Part shown: positions 45,152 through 61,132 of the stretch, piece after piece
Position numbering within the stretch: the first letter of the stretch is position 1
Layout: the number at the start of each line of letters is the position of its first letter
Assembly (NCBI RefSeq): GCF_009908315.1
Contig: NZ_JAAATW010000001.1
Coordinates: forward strand, 992,001-1,056,000
Source: Paragemmobacter ruber
Lineage (GTDB): Bacteria; Pseudomonadota; Alphaproteobacteria; Rhodobacterales; Rhodobacteraceae
Direction: 5' to 3'
DNA: 64,000 bases
Made by a program: the position numbers and the translations under genes
The notes under the pieces: model-generated
Told to the model about the DNA's origin: nothing
The model's database searches: none
The model's input: only the letters and a program-made list of their open reading frames with translations

Positions 45152-45173
45152 AGGCGGGCTTCTTGCGACGGAC

Positions 45174-45193
45174 GGGGGGACCCCTGTCCCCCC
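45174..45193 (+). terminator. Hairpin after rpoN
   Basis: Stem GGGGGGAC / GTCCCCCC (8 bp) with loop CCCT, 22 bases after the rpoN stop. No T-tract. Confidence 0.5.
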
Positions 45194-45283
45194 GAACCCC
45201 CCTTCCGCCCCGCAACAGGCCGGCGCGACCGCCCCCCCGAAGACACCCAGCGCCCGGCCCATCATCCAGGATCGGGGGGGTGT

Positions 45284-45305
45284 CGGGGGGGCTGTTGCCC
45301 CCCCG
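45284..45305 (-). terminator. GC hairpin downstream of the decayed mnmH copies
   Basis: Stem CGGGGGGGC / GCCCCCCCG (9 bp) with loop TGTT, between rpoN and the decayed mnmH copies. It faces both converging units and could end either. Confidence 0.4.
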
Positions 45306-45391
45306 CCCGGTCTCGCATCCCCTGCGGTCTGGCATTCACACCGCCTGCCAGCCCCTCCGGCGCCTTGTTCCCCCGGCCGCCATCGCATGGT

Positions 45392-45540
45392 CTATAACAC
45401 GCGATGCTTGGCCCCCCGCAGGTCACGATCCCGCGCCCCCACCGCCTCGGCCACGCCCGCGCAATCGGCCGCCGCCACCAGCGCATCCCGGCGCGCCACA
45501 TCCGCCACCAGATCGGCACAGGCCCGCTCCGCGCGCGCGC
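45392..45540 (-). pseudogene. Decayed mnmH 3' fragment, copy 3
   Basis: In frame this segment reads ADLVADVARRDALVAAADCA then GVAEAVGARDRDLRGAKHRVL and stops at TAG 45392. It matches the second decayed copy to the right and the end of mnmH, but breaks off before the PATEVAVEG part. An in-frame stop lies just upstream and there is no good start, so it is a remnant. Its DNA and the adjoining spacer (to about 45630) are imperfect repeats of the 45640-45985 region. Confidence 0.75.
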
Positions 45541-45635
45541 CGGATCACCACCCGTTCGCTCCGGCCATCATCAGGACCGCACCCCCCCCTTGCCGAAAAG
45601 CGCGCTTGGGGGCCGTCACCCCGCCCCGCTCCATC

Positions 45636-45872
45636 TCACATCCCCTGCACCACGGCGGCCACCCGGTCCACCAAACCGGCCAGATCGTCCAGTCCCTCGA
45701 CCGCCACCTCGGTGGCGGGGGCTGCCCTGCGACTGCGGTGCTTGGCCTCGCAAAGGTCGCAAGGACGCGCCCCCACCGCCTCGGCCACGCCCGCGCAATC
45801 GCCCGCCGCCACCAGCGCATCCAAACGCGCCACATCCGCCACCATATCGGCACGGGCCCGCACCGCGCGCAC
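45636..45872 (-). pseudogene. Tandem duplicate of the mnmH C-terminus, copy 2
   Basis: An open frame of 78 codons (GTG 45872) that repeats the last part of MnmH: ADMVADVARLDALVAAGDCA then GVAEAVGA, and PATEVAVEGLDDLAGL to VAAVVQGM. Compared with the intact gene it lacks about 19 residues between VARLDA and VAAGD and has lost the ARHYDPRYGKH stretch. It may be a dead fragment or a short expressed peptide; the reading frame has survived, which is odd for pure decay. Confidence 0.75.
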
Positions 45873-45987
45873 GCAGCATCACCATCCGTTCGCCCCGGCC
45901 AAAATCAGGACCGCAACCCCCAGCCCCCTGCCGACAAGCGCGTTTGGGGGCCGTCACCCCGCCCCTGTCACCCCGCCCCGGCCCATC

Positions 45988-47028
45988 TCACATCCCCCGC
46001 ACCACGGCGGCCACCCGGTCCGCCAAACCGGCCAGATCGTCCAGCCCCTCCACCGCCACCTCGGTGGCGGGGGCCGGCATTCGGCTGCGGTGCTTGCCAT
46101 AGCGCGGGTCGTAATGCCGCGCCATCAACCCCTCGGCCACGCCCGCGAAATCGCCCGCCGCCACCATGGCCCGCCAGTCCGCGATCACCTCGCGCGGATG
46201 CGCAGGCGCCAGCGACGCCACCACCGCATCCAGACGCGCCACATCCGCCACCAGATCGGCATAGGCCCGCACCAGATAGCCTGCCCGCGCCGCCCGGGGC
46301 GCCTCGATCGCCACGCGCGGCGCCTCTACCATCGCGCGCCACAACCGGGGCGGCAGGCGGCACTCCCCCACCTTGGCGCTCTCCGCCTCCACCACCACCG
46401 GCCGCGCCGGATCGAGCCGCGCCAGCGCCAGCGCCAGCCGCCCCTCAAAGGCCTTCTGCGACGGCTGCTCTCCCACCCGACCGAACAGCGACCCCCGATG
46501 GTTCGCCAACCCTTCCAGATCCACCACCTGCACCCCCCGCGCGGGCAACAGGTTCAACACCTCCGTCTTGCCCGACCCGGTATTCCCGTCCAGCACCACC
46601 AACCGAAACGGAAAGGGCGCATTGTAAAGCGCATCCACCACCAGCCGCCGCCACGTCTTGTAGCCGCCTGCAACCACCTCCACCCGCCACCCGATCTGGG
46701 CCAGGATCGACGCAAAGCTCCCCGACCGCTGCCCCCCGCGCCAGCAATAGACCAAGGGCCGCCACCCCCCCGGCTTGTCGGCCAAGGGTCCCTCCAGATG
46801 CAAAGCGGCATTCTTCGCCACCAGCGCCGCGCCCACCTTGCGCGCGGTGAACGGGCTCACCTGCTTGTAGATCGTCCCCACCCGCGCCCGCTCCGCATCA
46901 TCCAGCACCGGGAGCGAGATCGCCCCGGGCAGATGATCCTCCGCCCATTCCGCCGGGGCGCGCACGTCGATGATGTCATCGAAGTCCAGCGCCAGCACAT
47001 CCGCCAGCGATGTCAGCACCACCGCCAT
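45988..47028 (-). CDS. mnmH: tRNA 2-selenouridine synthase (MnmH/SelU)
   Basis: A 346-residue protein that swaps sulfur for selenium at U34 of tRNAs via a geranylated intermediate. The rhodanese domain has IIDVRAPAEWAEDHLPGA and LVYCWRGGQRS with C95; the P-loop is GNTGSGKT (148-155). The C-terminal domain ends ARHYDPRYGKHRSR and PATEVAVEG. It needs selenophosphate, which the SelD fusion at 41.6 kb would make. Its ATG shares one base with the argE stop (TGATG), so the two are coupled. Two decayed copies of its 3' end follow downstream. Confidence 0.95.
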   Translation of the reverse strand: MAVVLTSLADVLALDFDDIIDVRAPAEWAEDHLPGAISLPVLDDAERARVGTIYKQVSPFTARKVGAALVAKNAALHLEGPLADKPGGWRPLVYCWRGGQRSGSFASILAQIGWRVEVVAGGYKTWRRLVVDALYNAPFPFRLVVLDGNTGSGKTEVLNLLPARGVQVVDLEGLANHRGSLFGRVGEQPSQKAFEGRLALALARLDPARPVVVEAESAKVGECRLPPRLWRAMVEAPRVAIEAPRAARAGYLVRAYADLVADVARLDAVVASLAPAHPREVIADWRAMVAAGDFAGVAEGLMARHYDPRYGKHRSRMPAPATEVAVEGLDDLAGLADRVAAVVRGM

Positions 47029-48182
47029 CAGAACCCCGCCTCGCAGGCATCGACCAGCGCCGCCAGCATCGCACCGCAGCGCCCCATCTGCTCCACGCTG
47101 ACATACTCATCCGGCTTGTGCCCCTGCGCCATCGACCCGGGCCCACAGATCACCGTGGGCACCCCCAACCGCGCGTCAAACAGGCCCCCTTCCGTGCCAA
47201 AGGCCACCTTGATGCTCCCGTTCGCCCCGGTCAGCCCCTTCACGAAGCGCACCACCTCGGCATCCGAAGGCGTCCCCAGCCCCGGATAATCCCACAGCCG
47301 CTCGATCCGGATCTCGGCTTCCGGGAACTCCACCCGCAAAGGCGCCACCACCGCCTCGCACCCCGCCTGCACCTCGGCGATCAAGCCCGCCACATCCTCC
47401 CCCGCCAGCGACCGTATCTCCCAATCCGCCACGGCCAGATTGGGCACGATGTTCACCTGCACCCCACCCGCCATCTTGCCCACATGCAGCGTGGTGTAGG
47501 GCACATCATAATCCCCGTCCCGCATCCCCCCGGCCGCCACCCGCGCCTGCACGCCCCGCAACACGCCCACGAACTCCGCCGCCAGATGCAGCGCGTTCAA
47601 GGCCAGCGGCGCCAGCGCCGAATGACCCTCCCGCCCCACGCAGGTCGCCCGCAAGGCCACCTTCCCCTTATGCCCCGTCGCCACAGCCATCCCCGTGGGT
47701 TCCCCCACGATGCACAGGCGCGGCCGCACCGGTGCGCGCTCCAGCATCTCGATCATCGACCGCACGCCCATGCAGCCGATCTCCTCATCGTAAGACAGCG
47801 CCAGATGCAGCGGCACCCGCAGCTCCCGCCGCGCCGCCGCCAGCACGGCCGCGATCGCGCAGGCGACAAAGCCCTTCATGTCCGCCGTCCCGCGCCCGTA
47901 CAGCCGCCCCTGATCCTCGGTCAGCGCGAAGGGCGGATAGGTCCAGGCCTGCCCCTCCACCGGCACCACATCGGTATGCCCCGACAGCATCACCCCGCCC
48001 CTGTCGGCAGGCCCCACCGTCGCGTAAAGATTGGCCTTCGCCCCGCCCGCATCCGGGATCAGCACCGCCGCCACCCCTGCTTCCGCCAGCAGCCCCGCCA
48101 CCCAATCCATCAACGCCCGGTTGGGCCGGTCGCTCACGGTGTCAAAGGCCACCAGCCGCTCCAGTATCGCGCGCGCATCCAT
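47028..48182 (-). CDS. argE: Acetylornithine deacetylase
   Basis: An M20-family metalloprotease fold, 384 residues. Zinc ligands: H69 and D71 (LSGHTDVVP), D101 (GRGTADMKG), with the general base in SYDEEIGCMG (E133/E134). The C-terminal GGLFDARLGVPTVICGPGSMAQGHKPDEYV is the ArgE pattern. It removes the acetyl group from N-acetylornithine in arginine synthesis; a succinyl-diaminopimelate deacetylase is less likely by these motifs. It is upstream of, and coupled to, mnmH. Confidence 0.92.
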   Translation of the reverse strand: MDARAILERLVAFDTVSDRPNRALMDWVAGLLAEAGVAAVLIPDAGGAKANLYATVGPADRGGVMLSGHTDVVPVEGQAWTYPPFALTEDQGRLYGRGTADMKGFVACAIAAVLAAARRELRVPLHLALSYDEEIGCMGVRSMIEMLERAPVRPRLCIVGEPTGMAVATGHKGKVALRATCVGREGHSALAPLALNALHLAAEFVGVLRGVQARVAAGGMRDGDYDVPYTTLHVGKMAGGVQVNIVPNLAVADWEIRSLAGEDVAGLIAEVQAGCEAVVAPLRVEFPEAEIRIERLWDYPGLGTPSDAEVVRFVKGLTGANGSIKVAFGTEGGLFDARLGVPTVICGPGSMAQGHKPDEYVSVEQMGRCGAMLAALVDACEAGF

Positions 48183-48310
48183 GCCGCTGCCCTCCTGCTC
48201 CTCGCGCCACCTAACCGCAAAGCCGCGTGAAGCGGAAGGCCCGCCCCTTCCCCCGCCTGTCCCCCGGTGCCATGCTCCGCCACCACCTCACAAAGCGAAT
48301 CCCCCCTCCC

Positions 48311-48985
48311 ATGCGCCTGCCCTCCCCCACCCTGCCCGCCGCTGCCCTGCCCGCCGCTGCCCTCTGCGCCGCCCTCCTCGCCACGCCCCTCGCCGCTCAG
48401 GACAGCGGCCCGCAGCCGCCCCGCGACGCGGGCGCCGTCTCGCAACTCCTCGCCGCGCAGGCGCTCTTCGATCTGGGCCTGTCGCGCAAGGACCCGCTCG
48501 CCACCCTCGCCGCCGCGCGCCTCATGGCAGGCGTTGCCGCCACCGATACCGACCGCCAGCCCGATCCGCCCGGCGATGCCGTCCCGCCCACCTATCCGAT
48601 GGCGGACTTCATGTTCACCGCCGCCCGCGCGCTGGCACAGGAAGACGACCTCGCGACCGATCTCATCGCCCGGACCGAGGCCGAGGCCCCCCGCACCCCC
48701 ACCCTCACCGTGATGCGGTCCTCACGCGGCATCGGGGCCGGCGAAAGCCATGCCTATGCACTGCCCTTCTTCTCCGCCGCCCCGGCCGAAGTGGGCCTGC
48801 TCGGCGACGGCAAGGCCAATCTCGACCTGACCATCACCACCGCCGAGGAGACGCCCCTCTGCCTCGACACAGGCCCGTCCGACCGCGCGCTCTGCACCTT
48901 CACCCCGGCCGAGAACGCAACCTTCACCGTGACCGTCACAAACCGCAGCGAAACCGCAGCGACCTACAGCCTCCTGACCAACTAA
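48311..48985 (+). CDS. Secreted protein, unknown function
   Basis: A 224-residue protein with an Ala-rich signal peptide (LPAAALPAAALCAALLATPLAAQ). The mature part has a helical N-terminal region (SQLLAAQALFDLGLSRKDP) and a C-terminal beta domain with LDLTITTAEETPLCLDTG and ATFTVTVTNRSETAATYSLL, which resembles pre-peptidase C-terminal (PPC) domains. Role unknown, likely periplasmic. ATG 48311 directly before the signal is preferred to the open start at 48227. Confidence 0.65.
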   Translation: MRLPSPTLPAAALPAAALCAALLATPLAAQDSGPQPPRDAGAVSQLLAAQALFDLGLSRKDPLATLAAARLMAGVAATDTDRQPDPPGDAVPPTYPMADFMFTAARALAQEDDLATDLIARTEAEAPRTPTLTVMRSSRGIGAGESHAYALPFFSAAPAEVGLLGDGKANLDLTITTAEETPLCLDTGPSDRALCTFTPAENATFTVTVTNRSETAATYSLLTN

Positions 48986-49189
48986 CCCCCTGCAAAACAA
49001 CAATTGCTGCGCAGCATGAACCGCAGCGAACTGCCCGCTTCGCCGCGCAGCACAAACCCCGCGCACCCCGCAATCTCACCCATCCCCGCGGGAACATGAG
49101 GCGGCGACACGGGCCCGCCAACACCCCCCGCCCCAACATCCTCGGCCCCAACACCCCCACCCCCGGCCCACCCACAGCGCAAACCGCAA
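48986..49189. other. Spacer before the tandem array
   Basis: A short A- and C-rich stretch with several GCGCAGCA / CCGCAGCGAA words repeating the end of the preceding gene. It leads without a break into the repeat array. No gene or terminator hairpin is clear. Confidence 0.4.
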
Positions 49190-50125
49190 ACTACCTCAAC
49201 CCGGGACACCGTCCTCAACCCCAAAACCCCGCCCCCTCACCTCGGCCCAAACACCCATCCTCCACCACCCAAAAAAACCACACCACCCCTAAGCTCTCAT
49301 CCCCGGACGTTAACCTTAACGCCCCCAACCAGAGACATCGCCCACTACCGCAAAACCCCGCCTGCTCACCTTGGCCCAAATACCCATCTTCCACCCGACC
49401 CCACCCAAAAACCACACACCCCTCCAGCCGCCATTCCTAGACGTTAACCTTAACGCCCCCTCACCCTAGACACCGCCCCCCCCCAAAGAACCCCGCGCCC
49501 TCACCTTGACCCAAACACCCATCCTCCACCGCCCAAAAAAACCACACCACCCTTAGCTCTCATCCCCGGACATTAACCTTAACGCCCCCAACCAGAGACA
49601 TCGTCCACTACCCCAAAACCCCGCCCGCTCACCTTGGCCCAAATACCTATCGTCCACCCGACCCCACACCGAAACCACCCCCCTCCAGCCCCCTGCCCCG
49701 GACGTTAACCTTAACGCCCCCTCACCCGAGACACCGCCTCCCACTCAAAACCCCGCCCCTTCACCTTGACCCAAGCACCCCTTTTCCACCCCCCCCGAAA
49801 ACACTCCACCCCTCCAGCTCTGATCCCCAAACGTTAACCTTAACGCCCCATTCTCCCGAGACAGCGCCCCCCACCCAAAAACCCGCCGCCTCACCTTGGC
49901 TCAAATACCCACCTTTCACCCCACCTCACCCCGAAACCACGCCGCCCGCCATCCCCCCACCCCGGACGTTGACCTTAACCCCCCCTTACCCGAGACACCG
50001 CCTCCTCACCTTGGCCCAAACACCCCTCTTCCACCCCACCCCCCCGAAACCACGCCACCCTCCCGGGACGCTAATCTCAACGCCCCCTCACCCAAGACAT
50101 CGCAACCTCGGCCCTAACACCCATC
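49190..50125 (+). repeat. Tandem array of about seven imperfect units of roughly 130 bp
   Basis: The core GTTAACCTTAACG (part of the inverted repeat CGTTAA-CC-TTAACG) starts at 49309, 49443, 49572 (ATTAACC variant), 49704, 49833, 49968 (GTTGACC variant) and 50070 (diverged), giving spacings of 134, 129, 132, 129, 135 and 102 bp. Each unit also has CACCTTGGCCCAAATACCC or a variant and a C-rich, G-poor filler with CGAGACACCGCC, CAAAACCCCGCC and CCACCCCTCCAG. A partial unit opens the array at 49190. Divergence increases to the right. No ORF runs through it. The plus strand is strikingly poor in G. Confidence 0.9.
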
Positions 50126-50203
50126 CGCAACACGCGCCGCCCCGTCGGCGCTCTGCTGGCTCGCGCCTCCCAGCCTCGCCGCAATCTGCCGCGCCATAAG
50201 AAA

Positions 50204-50233
50204 AAGGCCGCGCAGCCCTCGCTGCGCGGCCTT
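50204..50233 (-). terminator. Intrinsic terminator of the inositol dehydrogenase unit
   Basis: Stem AAGGCCGCGCAG / CTGCGCGGCCTT (12 bp) with a 6-base loop, 18 bases past the iolG stop; on the minus strand it runs into TTTTT. It also separates the gene from the tandem array. Confidence 0.88.
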
Positions 50234-50251
50234 CCCAACGCTCTGAGCGCT

Positions 50252-51253
50252 TCAGAGGATCTCGCTCATCTTCACCACGCGCCCCTCGGCCACCGACTTC
50301 ACCGCCGCATCGGCCAGCGCCAGCGCGATCAGCCCGTCCTCGCCCGTCGGTTCCGCCTTCCCTTTGCCCGCCATCGCCGCCACAAAAGTGGCGATCTCGG
50401 CCGCATAGGCCTCGGTGTAGCGGGTCATGAAGAAATCATGCAGCGGCGGCCGCGTGTAGCCCGCCCCCGTTGCCACCTCGATGGACACAGGCCGCTGGTT
50501 TTCCGCCGACACCGCGCCCTTCGATCCATGCACCTCGATCCGCTGGTCATAGCCATAGGTCGCGCGGCGGGAATTCGAAATCATCGCCTGCTTGCCCGAC
50601 GCGGTTTTCAACAACACCTGCACGGAATCGAAATCACCCGCCGTGCCAATCGCCGGATCGACCAGCACCGCCGCCGTGGCGACAACCTCGGTGATCTCTT
50701 CGCCCAACAGGAACCGCGCCATGTCGAAATCATGGATCGTCATGTCGCGGAAGATCCCGCCCGACCGCTTGATGTAATCCACCGGCGGCGCGCCGGGATC
50801 GCGGCTGGTGATCACCACCATCTCCACCTCGCCCACGGTGCCCTTGTCGATCTCCGCCCGCACGGCGCGGAAATGCGGGTCGAAACGGCGGTTGAACCCC
50901 ACCATCAGCGTGCCCTTATGGGCGCGGACCACCTCCAGACAGGCCTTCACCCGCGCAAGCGACAGGTCGATGGGCTTTTCGCAGAACACGGCCTTGCCCG
51001 CCTTCACGAAGCGCTCGATCAGATCGGCATGGGTGTCGGTCGGCGTGCAGATCACCACCGCATCCACATCTGCCGCCGCCTCGATCGCCTCGATCGTCCG
51101 CACCTCGCAGCCATATTGCTCTGCCAAAGCCTGCGCCGCCGGCGCCATGGCATCCGCCACCGCCACCAGCCGCGCCTGCGCGTCGCCCGTCACCGCCTTC
51201 GCATGCACCTTGCCGATGCGCCCCGCGCCCAGCACCGCAAACCTGACTGCCAT
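50252..51253 (-). CDS. iolG: Inositol 2-dehydrogenase (Gfo/Idh/MocA family)
   Basis: A 333-residue NAD-dependent dehydrogenase. N-terminal Rossmann loop VLGAGRIGKVHAK, the strictly conserved CEKPIDL with the catalytic Lys, and GGIFRDMTIHDFDMARFLLGE with the catalytic Asp/His region, the IolG pattern. It oxidises myo-inositol to 2-keto-myo-inositol. Other iol genes are absent here, so a related sugar or cyclitol is possible. It is 49 bp after the SDR gene on the same strand, and an intrinsic terminator follows. The open frame to 51313 is longer but lacks conserved residues. Confidence 0.85.
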   Translation of the reverse strand: MAVRFAVLGAGRIGKVHAKAVTGDAQARLVAVADAMAPAAQALAEQYGCEVRTIEAIEAAADVDAVVICTPTDTHADLIERFVKAGKAVFCEKPIDLSLARVKACLEVVRAHKGTLMVGFNRRFDPHFRAVRAEIDKGTVGEVEMVVITSRDPGAPPVDYIKRSGGIFRDMTIHDFDMARFLLGEEITEVVATAAVLVDPAIGTAGDFDSVQVLLKTASGKQAMISNSRRATYGYDQRIEVHGSKGAVSAENQRPVSIEVATGAGYTRPPLHDFFMTRYTEAYAAEIATFVAAMAGKGKAEPTGEDGLIALALADAAVKSVAEGRVVKMSEIL

Positions 51254-51302
51254 CTTCCCGCTCCTCTGCCCGCTCCGGGGCGTTGCCATCCGGACCGGGG
51301 GA

Positions 51303-52085
51303 TCACTCCCCATAGGCCCCGTTCACATTCTGATCGAAATCCACCATCGCGCCCGTCATCACGCCCGCATCCTCGGACAGAAGATAGGACACAAGCCCCG
51401 CGACATGCACAGGCTTCACCAGCATCCCGAAAGGCTGCTTCGCCTCTGCCTCGGCCAGCCAGCCCTCGCCCGCGCCATGGAACCCGCGCTGGATGGCATC
51501 CTCGCCCGGCGTGTCCATCCAGCCCACATTCACCCCGTTCACCCGGATGCGATGGGCCCGCAGCGCATGGGCACTGTTCTTGGTGATATTGGCCAGCGCC
51601 GCCTTGCTGGCCGCATAGCCCGCAAGGAAAGACTGCCCGCAATGGCTGCTCATCGTCACGATGTTCACCGCTGCCGCCGGATGGCCCGCCGCGATCGCCG
51701 CCTGCGCGAACCGCTGCAGCGCAAAGAACGGCCCCTTGGCGTTGGTATCCATCAACGCGTCCCACCCTTCCGGCGTGGTATCAAGGATCGACCCCCGCGC
51801 GGTCGAGGCCGCCGCATTCACCAATGCGTTGACGGGGCCAAAACGCATCAGCGCCCGCTCCACCAGTTCCGCCGCCTCGCCCGCATCCGACATGTCCGCC
51901 GGCAGGAACCGCACATCCGCGCCCCGCGCGCGCAATCCTTCCGCCGCTGCCTCACCCTTCGTGACAGTCCGCCCCGAAATGATCAGCTTTCGGCACCCCT
52001 CGGCCACCAGCCGCTCGGCAATGGCAAGGCCCAGCCCCTGCCCACCCCCAGTGATGACGGCCACCGTCCGCGCGTGATCCGGCAT
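51303..52085 (-). CDS. Short-chain dehydrogenase/reductase
   Basis: A classical 260-residue SDR: cofactor loop TGGGQGLG (12-19), NAAAS (90-94), and the catalytic Ser146/147, Tyr157 and Lys161 (GYAASKAAL). Substrate unknown. It leads a two-gene unit with iolG, so a sugar or cyclitol substrate is plausible. Its start lies 129 bp from the palindrome that ends the ybbA-ybbP operon. Confidence 0.88.
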   Translation of the reverse strand: MPDHARTVAVITGGGQGLGLAIAERLVAEGCRKLIISGRTVTKGEAAAEGLRARGADVRFLPADMSDAGEAAELVERALMRFGPVNALVNAAASTARGSILDTTPEGWDALMDTNAKGPFFALQRFAQAAIAAGHPAAAVNIVTMSSHCGQSFLAGYAASKAALANITKNSAHALRAHRIRVNGVNVGWMDTPGEDAIQRGFHGAGEGWLAEAEAKQPFGMLVKPVHVAGLVSYLLSEDAGVMTGAMVDFDQNVNGAYGE

Positions 52086-59280: not shown

Positions 59281-60187
59281 ACGCCAACAGGAAACGCGCT
59301 TGCAGCGCGTTCAAATCCCGGCAGTATAGGACAGTAATAGGCGCGTCTCTTCGCCCCAACGTTTAAGTTTTCGCCCAGAAGATTTGATAGACTGAAGAAA
59401 TCACGTCACAGGGATTCTTCAAGGTGATCCAAAGGCGATCAGTGTCGCCATCGCGGAGTCGATGATCTAAGCCGTGCAGCACGGACGGACTGTCACCATG
59501 TTTTCTGTCGGTTCAATCGCGATGGCAAAGAGGGTTGGCGTAATGTCAAAAAATCTAAAAAGCAAGATTACACTGGCCGCAATTGTTTTTGGAATAGCTT
59601 TCCTCGATCCGTCGTTCGAGCCTTTCCAAAGCGCTCATGGCTTCTTGAGCGTTTCTGTCGTTCTTCTAGTCATATTCTTCGGCGATCGTTTGGCATCTTG
59701 GCTAATGCGAAAGTAAAGAATGAAGCTTAAATTTCTTCCAGAGTAAGAAACCTCGTTTTTTGAACCACCCTAATTCAGGCGATCCACCTAAAAACCGCGC
59801 AGCGACGAGCATGCCATCTCGGCCAGTATCTTTCAGATCACGCCCATAGATTGATCGCGCATACCTATTGCTGCGGGCCTTCATCGCTTTTGGCTTCACA
59901 CTTCGCATTCGCAATACCATCAACCTTGCTCTCTCGGTTATCCACCCAGAATACAACTGCTCGCACCTGAATAAAGGCTAGGTGGTCTATATCCACCGCA
60001 CGACGTACAAGGCAAACGCGCGATGCGCGCCCGGCTTCCCTGAGAAGTGCAGAGAACTTCGCGACTCACCCGCCGTGTCATGGTTAACGCGCCGAAAACC
60101 CACCGCGCGTCTGCACGCCCGTCTGCACGCGTTCCTGCACGCCCGAAAACGCCGCCCGCCGCCGATTAATCCAGCGCCCGCTTACAC
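59281..60187. other. Low-GC gap between the MFS gene and hemC
   Basis: About 900 bp, of which 59300-60050 is clearly lower in GC than anything else in the right half. One small membrane ORF (59543-59716) is plausible. A DnaA-box-like TTATCCACC lies at 59938-59946, and the inverted repeat GGTGG-N7-CCACC at 59981-59997. The right end (60108-60142) has three tandem CTGCACGC words. Nothing else can be supported. Confidence 0.4.
59543..59716 (+). CDS. Small membrane ORF in a low-GC gap, unknown
   Basis: A 57-codon ORF: basic start SKNLKSKITLAAIVFGIAFL, then FEPFQSAHGFL, a second hydrophobic segment (SVSVVLLVIFFGDRLASWL) and end MRK. Two helices are likely. Codon use is unlike neighbours (many A/T-ending codons). 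In-frame ATGs at 59522 and 59498 would extend it. No family recognised, and it may not be a gene. Confidence 0.35.
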   Translation: MSKNLKSKITLAAIVFGIAFLDPSFEPFQSAHGFLSVSVVLLVIFFGDRLASWLMRK

Positions 60188-61132
60188 TTAGCGCCAGCTG
60201 AAGAACCCCGCAGGCGCCCGGCCCAGCAACTCCTCCGCCAGATCGCGCCCCATGGCCGCCGCATCTGACAGGCCCCCACGCCGCGCGCCCGTGATCGACT
60301 CGCTGCCATCCGGCCGCAGGATCTCGCCGCGCAGCCAAAGCACGTCCTCTTCGATCACGGCAAGCCCCGCAATCGGCGTCTCGCAAGACCCGTCCAGCCG
60401 TGCCAGCATCCCGCGCTCGGCGGCCAGCCGCACCCCCGTATCCCGGTCATGGATCGCCGAAAGCATCCACTCAACCCGTTGATCGGAAACGCGTCTTTCC
60501 ACGCCGATCGCGCCTTGCGCCACCGCAGGCAGCATCTCTTCCGGCGCAATCGCCGCCCGCGCCACATGCGCCATGCCCAGCCGGTTCAGCCCCGCCATGG
60601 CAAGGAACGTGGCCACCGCCACCCCTTCCTCCAGCTTGCGCATCCGCGTCTGCACATTGCCCCGGAACTCCACCAGCCGCAGATCGGGCCGCCGCAGCGC
60701 CAGTTGCGCCCGCCGCCGCAGCGACGAAGACCCCACCACCGCCCCCTGCGGCAGGTCCGCCAGCGACGCCACGCCGGGCGACACGAACCCGTCCCGCACA
60801 TCCTCGCGCGGCAGATAGCAGTCCAGCACCAACCCCTCCGGCTGCACCGTCGGCATGTCCTTCATCGAATGGACCGCTATATCTATGGCGCCTTCGATCA
60901 ACGCCTCCTCGATCTCGCGTGTGAACAGCCCCTTGCCGCCGATCTCCTTCAGCGGCTTGTCCAGGATCTGGTCGCCCGTCACCTTGATCACCACGATCTC
61001 GAACGCCTCATCCGGCAGGCCAAAGGCCACCCCCAGACAGCGCCGCACCTCATGCGCCTGCCACAGCGCAAGGGGCGAACCACGGGTTCCGATCTTCAAC
61101 GGCTGGGCGGGGGAGGGGAGCGGATGCGTCAT
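60188..61132 (-). CDS. hemC: Porphobilinogen deaminase (hydroxymethylbilane synthase)
   Basis: A 314-residue tetrapyrrole enzyme that links four porphobilinogens. It has LKIGTRGSPLALWQA, GGKGLFTREIEEALIEGAIDIAVHSMKDMP, GSSSLRRRAQLALRRPDL and LDGSCETPIAG with the dipyrromethane-bearing Cys250. ATG 61132 is preferred; ATG 61144 (MPWG) is four codons upstream. It diverges from a small membrane gene and hemE, a usual arrangement in Rhodobacterales. Confidence 0.96.
   Translation of the reverse strand: MTHPLPSPAQPLKIGTRGSPLALWQAHEVRRCLGVAFGLPDEAFEIVVIKVTGDQILDKPLKEIGGKGLFTREIEEALIEGAIDIAVHSMKDMPTVQPEGLVLDCYLPREDVRDGFVSPGVASLADLPQGAVVGSSSLRRRAQLALRRPDLRLVEFRGNVQTRMRKLEEGVAVATFLAMAGLNRLGMAHVARAAIAPEEMLPAVAQGAIGVERRVSDQRVEWMLSAIHDRDTGVRLAAERGMLARLDGSCETPIAGLAVIEEDVLWLRGEILRPDGSESITGARRGGLSDAAAMGRDLAEELLGRAPAGFFSWR

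Follow-up and report, generated by a model that had tools for sequence, protein, structure and literature searches.

A 14-bp palindrome in a young tandem array of Paragemmobacter ruber as a putative selected protein-binding site

The array and its surroundings

The window, by which we mean the whole 64,000-nucleotide stretch of Paragemmobacter ruber DNA that was analysed, contains a tandem array flanked by two convergent genes, 48227-48985 on the plus strand and 50252-51313 on the minus strand. The array repeats a 14-bp palindrome, CGTTAACCTTAACG, hereafter the core, in which two TTAA motifs are separated by two bases (TTAA-N2-TTAA, here TTAA-CC-TTAA), together with a second conserved word. 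The features of the locus are the following:

48227-48985, plus strand: upstream gene for a 252-aa protein without Pfam match, 3' end toward the array
49197-50131, no strand: tandem array of 7-8 units of about 130 bp (A/B doublets of about 263 bp), from Tandem Repeats Finder and a repeat search
49308-49321, plus strand: exact core CGTTAACCTTAACG
49442-49455, plus strand: exact core CGTTAACCTTAACG
49571-49584, plus strand: core with one mismatch (CATTAACCTTAACG), an outer-base change
49703-49716, plus strand: exact core CGTTAACCTTAACG
49832-49845, plus strand: exact core CGTTAACCTTAACG
49967-49980, plus strand: decayed core, 2 mismatches, inner changes
50069-50082, plus strand: decayed core, 3 mismatches, inner changes
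49239-49265, no strand: second word, copy 1 of 8 (repeat search, as for copies 2 to 8)
49368-49394, no strand: second word, copy 2 of 8
49503-49529, no strand: second word, copy 3 of 8
49631-49657, no strand: second word, copy 4 of 8
49763-49789, no strand: second word, copy 5 of 8
49893-49919, no strand: second word, copy 6 of 8
50008-50034, no strand: second word, copy 7 of 8
50105-50131, no strand: second word, copy 8 of 8
50204-50233, no strand: terminator-like hairpin past the array, 13-bp perfect arms
50252-51313, minus strand: Gfo/Idh/MocA oxidoreductase gene, 3' end toward the array

Tandem Repeats Finder places a period of 129 with 6.2 copies at 49197-50010, and this period is outscored by a 263-bp doublet with 83% matches, a stronger period which indicates that A/B pairs were probably amplified. 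The repeat search delineates seven 82-nt copies with spacings of 129, 135, 128, 132, 130 and 115, and the unit lengths in the array range from 115 to 135 bp. These results confirm the tandem array of units of about 130 bp with a palindromic core that an earlier note, made from the sequence alone, had described. The seven cores counted in that note hold in part, with four exact and one carrying a single mismatch, but the last two are decayed. The exact form CTTGGCCCAAATACC of the second word is found in 2 of its 8 copies. As the same note had proposed, the cores are better conserved than the filler: the mean pairwise identity among the array units is 0.878 for the core and 0.867 for the second word, versus 0.742 for the remaining 97 columns.

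The plus strand of the array is composed of 25% A, 52% C, 10% G and 13% T. Its G content (10.3%, versus 27.4% for the whole window) bears out the G-poor strand claimed before, but across the window as a whole this strand is already C-rich, with 39.9% C. The claim that the array has no coding frame stands for most of its length, as no open reading frame of at least 90 aa touches 49441-50251, but a mechanical open reading frame, 48031-49440 on the plus strand, extends into the first units. The terminator-like hairpin beyond the array was found as described. We found no GANTC in the array, no Rfam family at gathering score and no plasmid record matching it. An iteron array of plasmid or phage origin was rejected, given that the array lies next to a Gfo/Idh gene and a gene whose 252-aa product has no Pfam match, and that no plasmid record matches.

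In another part of the window, 45160-45988 holds apparent degenerate tandem copies of the 3' part of the gene at 45988-47028, downstream of that gene, which by eye we take to be selU-like.

Recurrence of the core word and the type-1 element

In the 3.96-Mb genome, the core is found 11 times in exact form and six times with one mismatch, and the reversed pattern, a control that is itself an inverted repeat, is found 0 times. Because of these 11 exact copies against 0 for the control, the core is not a chance word. All six one-mismatch copies have their change within the outer two bases of an arm and never in the inner TTAACCTTAA, and the centre is CC/GG everywhere except in three places among the matches listed. 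Furthermore, 15 of the 19 genus genomes carry the exact core, with up to 20 copies, and four do not; the reversed control is absent from all 19.

At the family level, 14 of 149 genomes have the core either in exact form or as a CCC variant, and 18 have the control; more than three matches are found only in G000 (11), G018 (20; also of this genus) and G122 (9). The 147 family genomes outside the genus contain 24 exact-core matches, 9 of them in one genome, versus 19 for the reversed control; with the control at similar frequency, there is no family-level enrichment outside the genus apart from G122. A looser pattern applied at the order level matches 42 of 149 genomes, with 109 matches (15 in the window's genome) against 32 for the control, and the only others with more than three matches are G177 (12), G218 (10), G162 (8), G267 (5), G187 (4) and G207 (4). 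Overall, this genus and a small number of others show enrichment of the core word. Five exact 14-bp words at 21-42 bp steps are also seen in a Tannerellaceae MAG contig of a distant phylum (L070, 7212-7351); these copies are probably unrelated. Within the openly accessible portion of PubMed Central, we found no description of the core, the second word or the dispersed element described below.

Core clusters are found in G008 (where the array contains an assembly gap), G010/G011, G012, G017 and G018, and the unit number varies between core arrays. When eight genus arrays were compared with their cores masked, only 6 of the 28 pairs gave matches (E <= 0.01), five of these being the second word and one a 14-base match. 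The eight arrays have the core and the second word in common and almost nothing else.

Next, we examined where cores sit relative to genes, using most of the exact genus sites and 7 of the 9 sites of G122, with contig-end sites left out; this amounts to 148 distinct exact sites, and 138 once six contigs from the pattern scan are excluded. We found 134 of the 138 outside predicted genes and 4 in predicted open reading frames. After removal of near-duplicates, 102 core loci remain, 44 between convergent genes, 42 between co-directional genes, 10 between divergent genes, 3 at an edge and 3 inside, with gene calls from a codon-usage script that makes strand errors and misses short genes. All gaps of these loci, which were picked for exact cores and whose control gaps include the core gaps, are 83 convergent versus 74 divergent. 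The genes before the cores are unrelated and include murD and an arginase-family gene (Pfam) as well as, by eye, genes for a ribosomal protein and a flavin reductase. That the cores follow many genes of unrelated kinds speaks for a general role at gene ends or in the chromosome and against a single regulon.

About half of the core loci overall, and 68 of 114 by regular expression with near-duplicates included, belong to a common element of about 150 bp that we term type-1. It consists of GNACGCTGNNTTAA, about 25 bp, mostly three 12-13-bp GTGC(A/C)G repeats and a last repeat, which about 15 or 20 bp separate from the core. R1, a sequence model of the element built from 57 copies, was applied with scoring limited to 150 candidates in each genome. 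It finds 62-113 copies in each of 11 genus genomes, and the remaining eight of the 19 have 0-1. Applied to 120 family genomes with stricter filters and 25 candidates scored per genome, it matches only the two of this genus. A copy in G018 lies at C3:153695-153793, which corresponds to the place of a match in the Fuscovulum ytuae plasmid NZ_CP124537.1 (153702-153760). The window holds one copy:

60076-60189, minus strand: type-1 copy with TGTGC-type repeats, then a GCGTTAACCATG half-site and GAGTC (R1, E 2.3e-11)

This copy also contains TTAACCAT. The window array has cores without the type-1 repeats, and R1 matches it weakly, around the cores.

TTAACC lies within the core, and TTAACCAT is not in the core itself but, by sequence, in 9 of 21 type-1 copies without exact core; 15 of these 21 carry TTAACC near the place of the core and 13 carry GANTC. 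In 58 core-bearing type-1 elements, we found 28 GANTC sites 0-45 bp beyond the core, versus a density of about 0.5 per kb between 100 and 300 bp from it. Cores outside type-1 elements (n = 68) have a weak GANTC excess, with 7 sites at 0-60 bp.

In the alignment of 57 copies, GTGG opens the last repeat in all 21 from G006, G008 and G018 and in 1 of the 36 from G000, G003, G004, G007, G010, G011 and G016; this single exception is a G003 copy. This split indicates that the repeat unit changed genome-wide between species. The last repeat thus differs between species groups and is near-uniform within a genome, the place after murD included.

RNA covariation was not detected in the type-1 element (consensus energy -4.31 kcal/mol), and we accordingly read it as DNA rather than structured RNA; near 15 type-1 loci, Rfam gave only two tRNAs. 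The repeat-bearing strand is locally G-rich at 66 of the 68 core-bearing loci (near-duplicate G010/G011 included), in all 21 further copies, and in 17 of 20 copies of G011, the 20 including 15 that had been picked as opposing a two-replichore split. On the single-contig chromosome of G011 the polarity is weaker: such a split, its boundaries guessed, accommodates 42 of 58 listed copies. We make no claim of a KOPS-like replication polarity, because only these 42 fit and the local skew flips within tens of kb.

The core and the array at orthologous places

We located the array's place in close relatives by the Gfo/Idh gene, and found neither core nor array there in any of the eight readable relatives, one of which (L050) has a different far-side gene; L056, which ends inside the gene, is not counted among the eight. 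Likewise, no core was found in the 16 loci L048-L063. The second word is present at this place as the exact pattern in five of the eight relatives, in degenerate form in two more and not in L055, and L049 (G003) has it twice. The absence of the core and the presence of the second word in most relatives indicate that the array arose in the lineage of the window, probably out of a spacer that already had this word. It is a recent amplification specific to this species, and a fixed array is not supported. Being missing in eight close relatives, the array cannot be essential, and by the refuting condition that the earlier note had set, it is the array that is labile, not the core.

Downstream of murD, CGTTAAGGTTAA[C/T]G is kept in 9 of 11 element-bearing genus members (for G007, as read from a separate locus, L104, its contig being cut in the locus used for the search); G001 and G004 carry elements and have no core after murD. 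Of the eight genomes with 0-1 element copies, the comparison took in all but G014: G012 has two cores at this place and G017 a series of core variants, and none was found in the stretch examined in G002, G005, G009, G013 and G015. The G017 variants (L260), such as CGTTAGGGTTAACG, are spaced by roughly 20-35 bp, in a species with at most one element copy.

In an alignment of the murD 3' end from eight genomes, restricted to those that keep the core and without G010, which nearly duplicates G011, identity is 0.962 for the core, versus 0.431 for the 20 bp after it and 0.698 for the 20 bp before it. The element repeats reach 0.645, and the left motif of the element beside the stop codon, at 0.952, comes close to the core in conservation. 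Conservation of the core against diverged flanks at orthologous places is the main evidence of selection on it.

A second place lies near fabF, where cores are found within 260 bp after an arginase-family gene in G000, G004, G007, G010 and G011, and none in G001, G002, G005, G012 and G013; the locus is cut in G014, G009 has no homologue and the other genomes have only distant homologues. The arginase-family gene sits between what are presumably acpP and fabF, named by eye, and the number of cores after it varies (L031, L040, L044, L046).

Possible roles of the core and likeness to known systems

Collectively, the genus-wide recurrence of the core, its presence in otherwise unlike arrays and the contrast at murD, where it is the best conserved 14-bp stretch, indicate on comparative grounds that the core is under selection, in agreement with the selected DNA word suspected before. 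We propose, with moderate confidence, that the core is a selected putative protein-binding site and the array its local amplification. Its form would most likely suit a dimeric protein, probably a regulator or a chromosome-structuring protein, for which TTAACC-type half-sites would be what the putative dimer recognises; the inner TTAACCTTAA is the most constrained part, a pattern that contact of a dimer with two half-sites would be expected to leave. A spacer with the second word may have gained a core and then undergone tandem amplification, local and species-specific, and repeated duplication would have produced a cluster of about five good sites at which binding might be cooperative. Such binding could affect neighbouring genes or chromosome structure.

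The neutral minisatellite, which the earlier note had set as its null model, attributes the array to slippage of an arbitrary intergenic piece, with a core that looks conserved since the units are young. It agrees with the absence of the array from the close relatives examined, with a doublet structure that reflects successive duplication, with the decay of two of the seven array cores and with the differing unit number among arrays, and may hold for copy number. It fails for the core, because it leaves unexplained why one 14-bp sequence recurs in unlike arrays and is kept at murD between diverged flanks, and we judge it quite unlikely as an account of the whole. It is very unlikely that the C-rich, G-poor plus-strand transcript of the array, which does lie downstream of a plus-strand gene, acts on account of its composition as a Rho-dependent terminator region for that gene. 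The strand bias is weaker in the other core arrays and not general (G of 16-25% on the scored strand in six of the seven and 45% in one), and the palindrome would be left unexplained.

Other readings assign the core to a particular protein, and a CtrA/CcrM-like or chromosome-organising role may be envisaged. We regard it as rather unlikely that the core is a variant CtrA site with TTAACC half-sites, read with CcrM methylation of GANTC, and the array a CtrA sink or site cluster, although the TTAACC, TTAACCAT and GANTC of type-1 copies without exact core and the GANTC excess just past type-1 cores speak for it. According to PMC6180460, TTAACCAT is an ungapped CtrA variant and the full site is TTAA-N7-TTAA, with a 6-bp gap between the half-sites in two promoters of R. 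sphaeroides; the core is spaced by N2 rather than N7 or N6. Furthermore, the array is without GANTC, cores outside type-1 elements have only a weak GANTC excess, and CtrA is described as conserved in most Alphaproteobacteria, whereas few genera show enrichment of the core.

It is unlikely as well that the core is bound by a protein that organises the chromosome at gene ends or at converging genes, either a GapR-like or a boundary protein. The excess of convergent over divergent core gaps and the unrelated genes at cores favour it, but 42 of the 102 core loci are co-directional. GapR prefers overtwisted AT-rich DNA over a fixed palindrome, and the core is a fixed palindrome. The roles named in the earlier note gained no ground: core sites are scattered over genomes, the neighbours of the array are not replication or partition genes as an iteron or segregation role would suggest, and silencing found no direct support.

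Extending the proposal of a selected binding site, we tentatively suggest, with more doubt than belief, that the core is a module of a lineage-specific, genome-wide site system of about 60-110 polar elements of about 150 bp per genome, each combining TGTGC-type repeats of 12 bp with either the core or a TTAACC half-site, often with GANTC as well, and lying mostly after genes. Their repeats would switch in concert between species, as if tracking one fast-evolving DNA-binding protein, and the core arrays would be extra loading clusters. The core is a short, exactly defined word with a natural mutation series in its orthologous places, decayed array copies and half-sites, and it points to a putative protein that, in a Rhodobacter-like lineage, would have its sites close to the ends of genes. 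The concerted change of the type-1 repeats would be a tractable case of coevolution between a site and its binding protein, and the element could link cell-cycle methylation to gene ends.

Compared with known systems, the core and the type-1 elements resemble the CtrA half-sites (TTAA, TTAACCAT) with CcrM GANTC in their TTAACC and in the GANTC beside many type-1 copies, and differ in the N2 spacing of the core, the mostly post-gene position and the lack of GANTC in the array. Clustered operator or iteron arrays consist of tandem units with one conserved site each. The window array is alike in this respect and unlike in having no adjoining rep or par gene, a 130-bp unit and a location that is not conserved. 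REP/BIME sequences are intergenic, often after genes, palindromic and clustered, and form a long stable hairpin. The core sites share the intergenic, often post-gene, palindromic and clustered setting, but the core is a 14-bp AT-rich word with a hairpin potential of 5 bp only, and the array sites share only the core and the second word; membership was rejected for want of a long stable hairpin in either the core or the type-1 element, the latter having weak consensus energy and no covariation. Finally, GapR-bound DNA is AT-rich and lies at gene ends and between convergent genes, a setting that the core shares, differing in its strict 14-bp palindrome.
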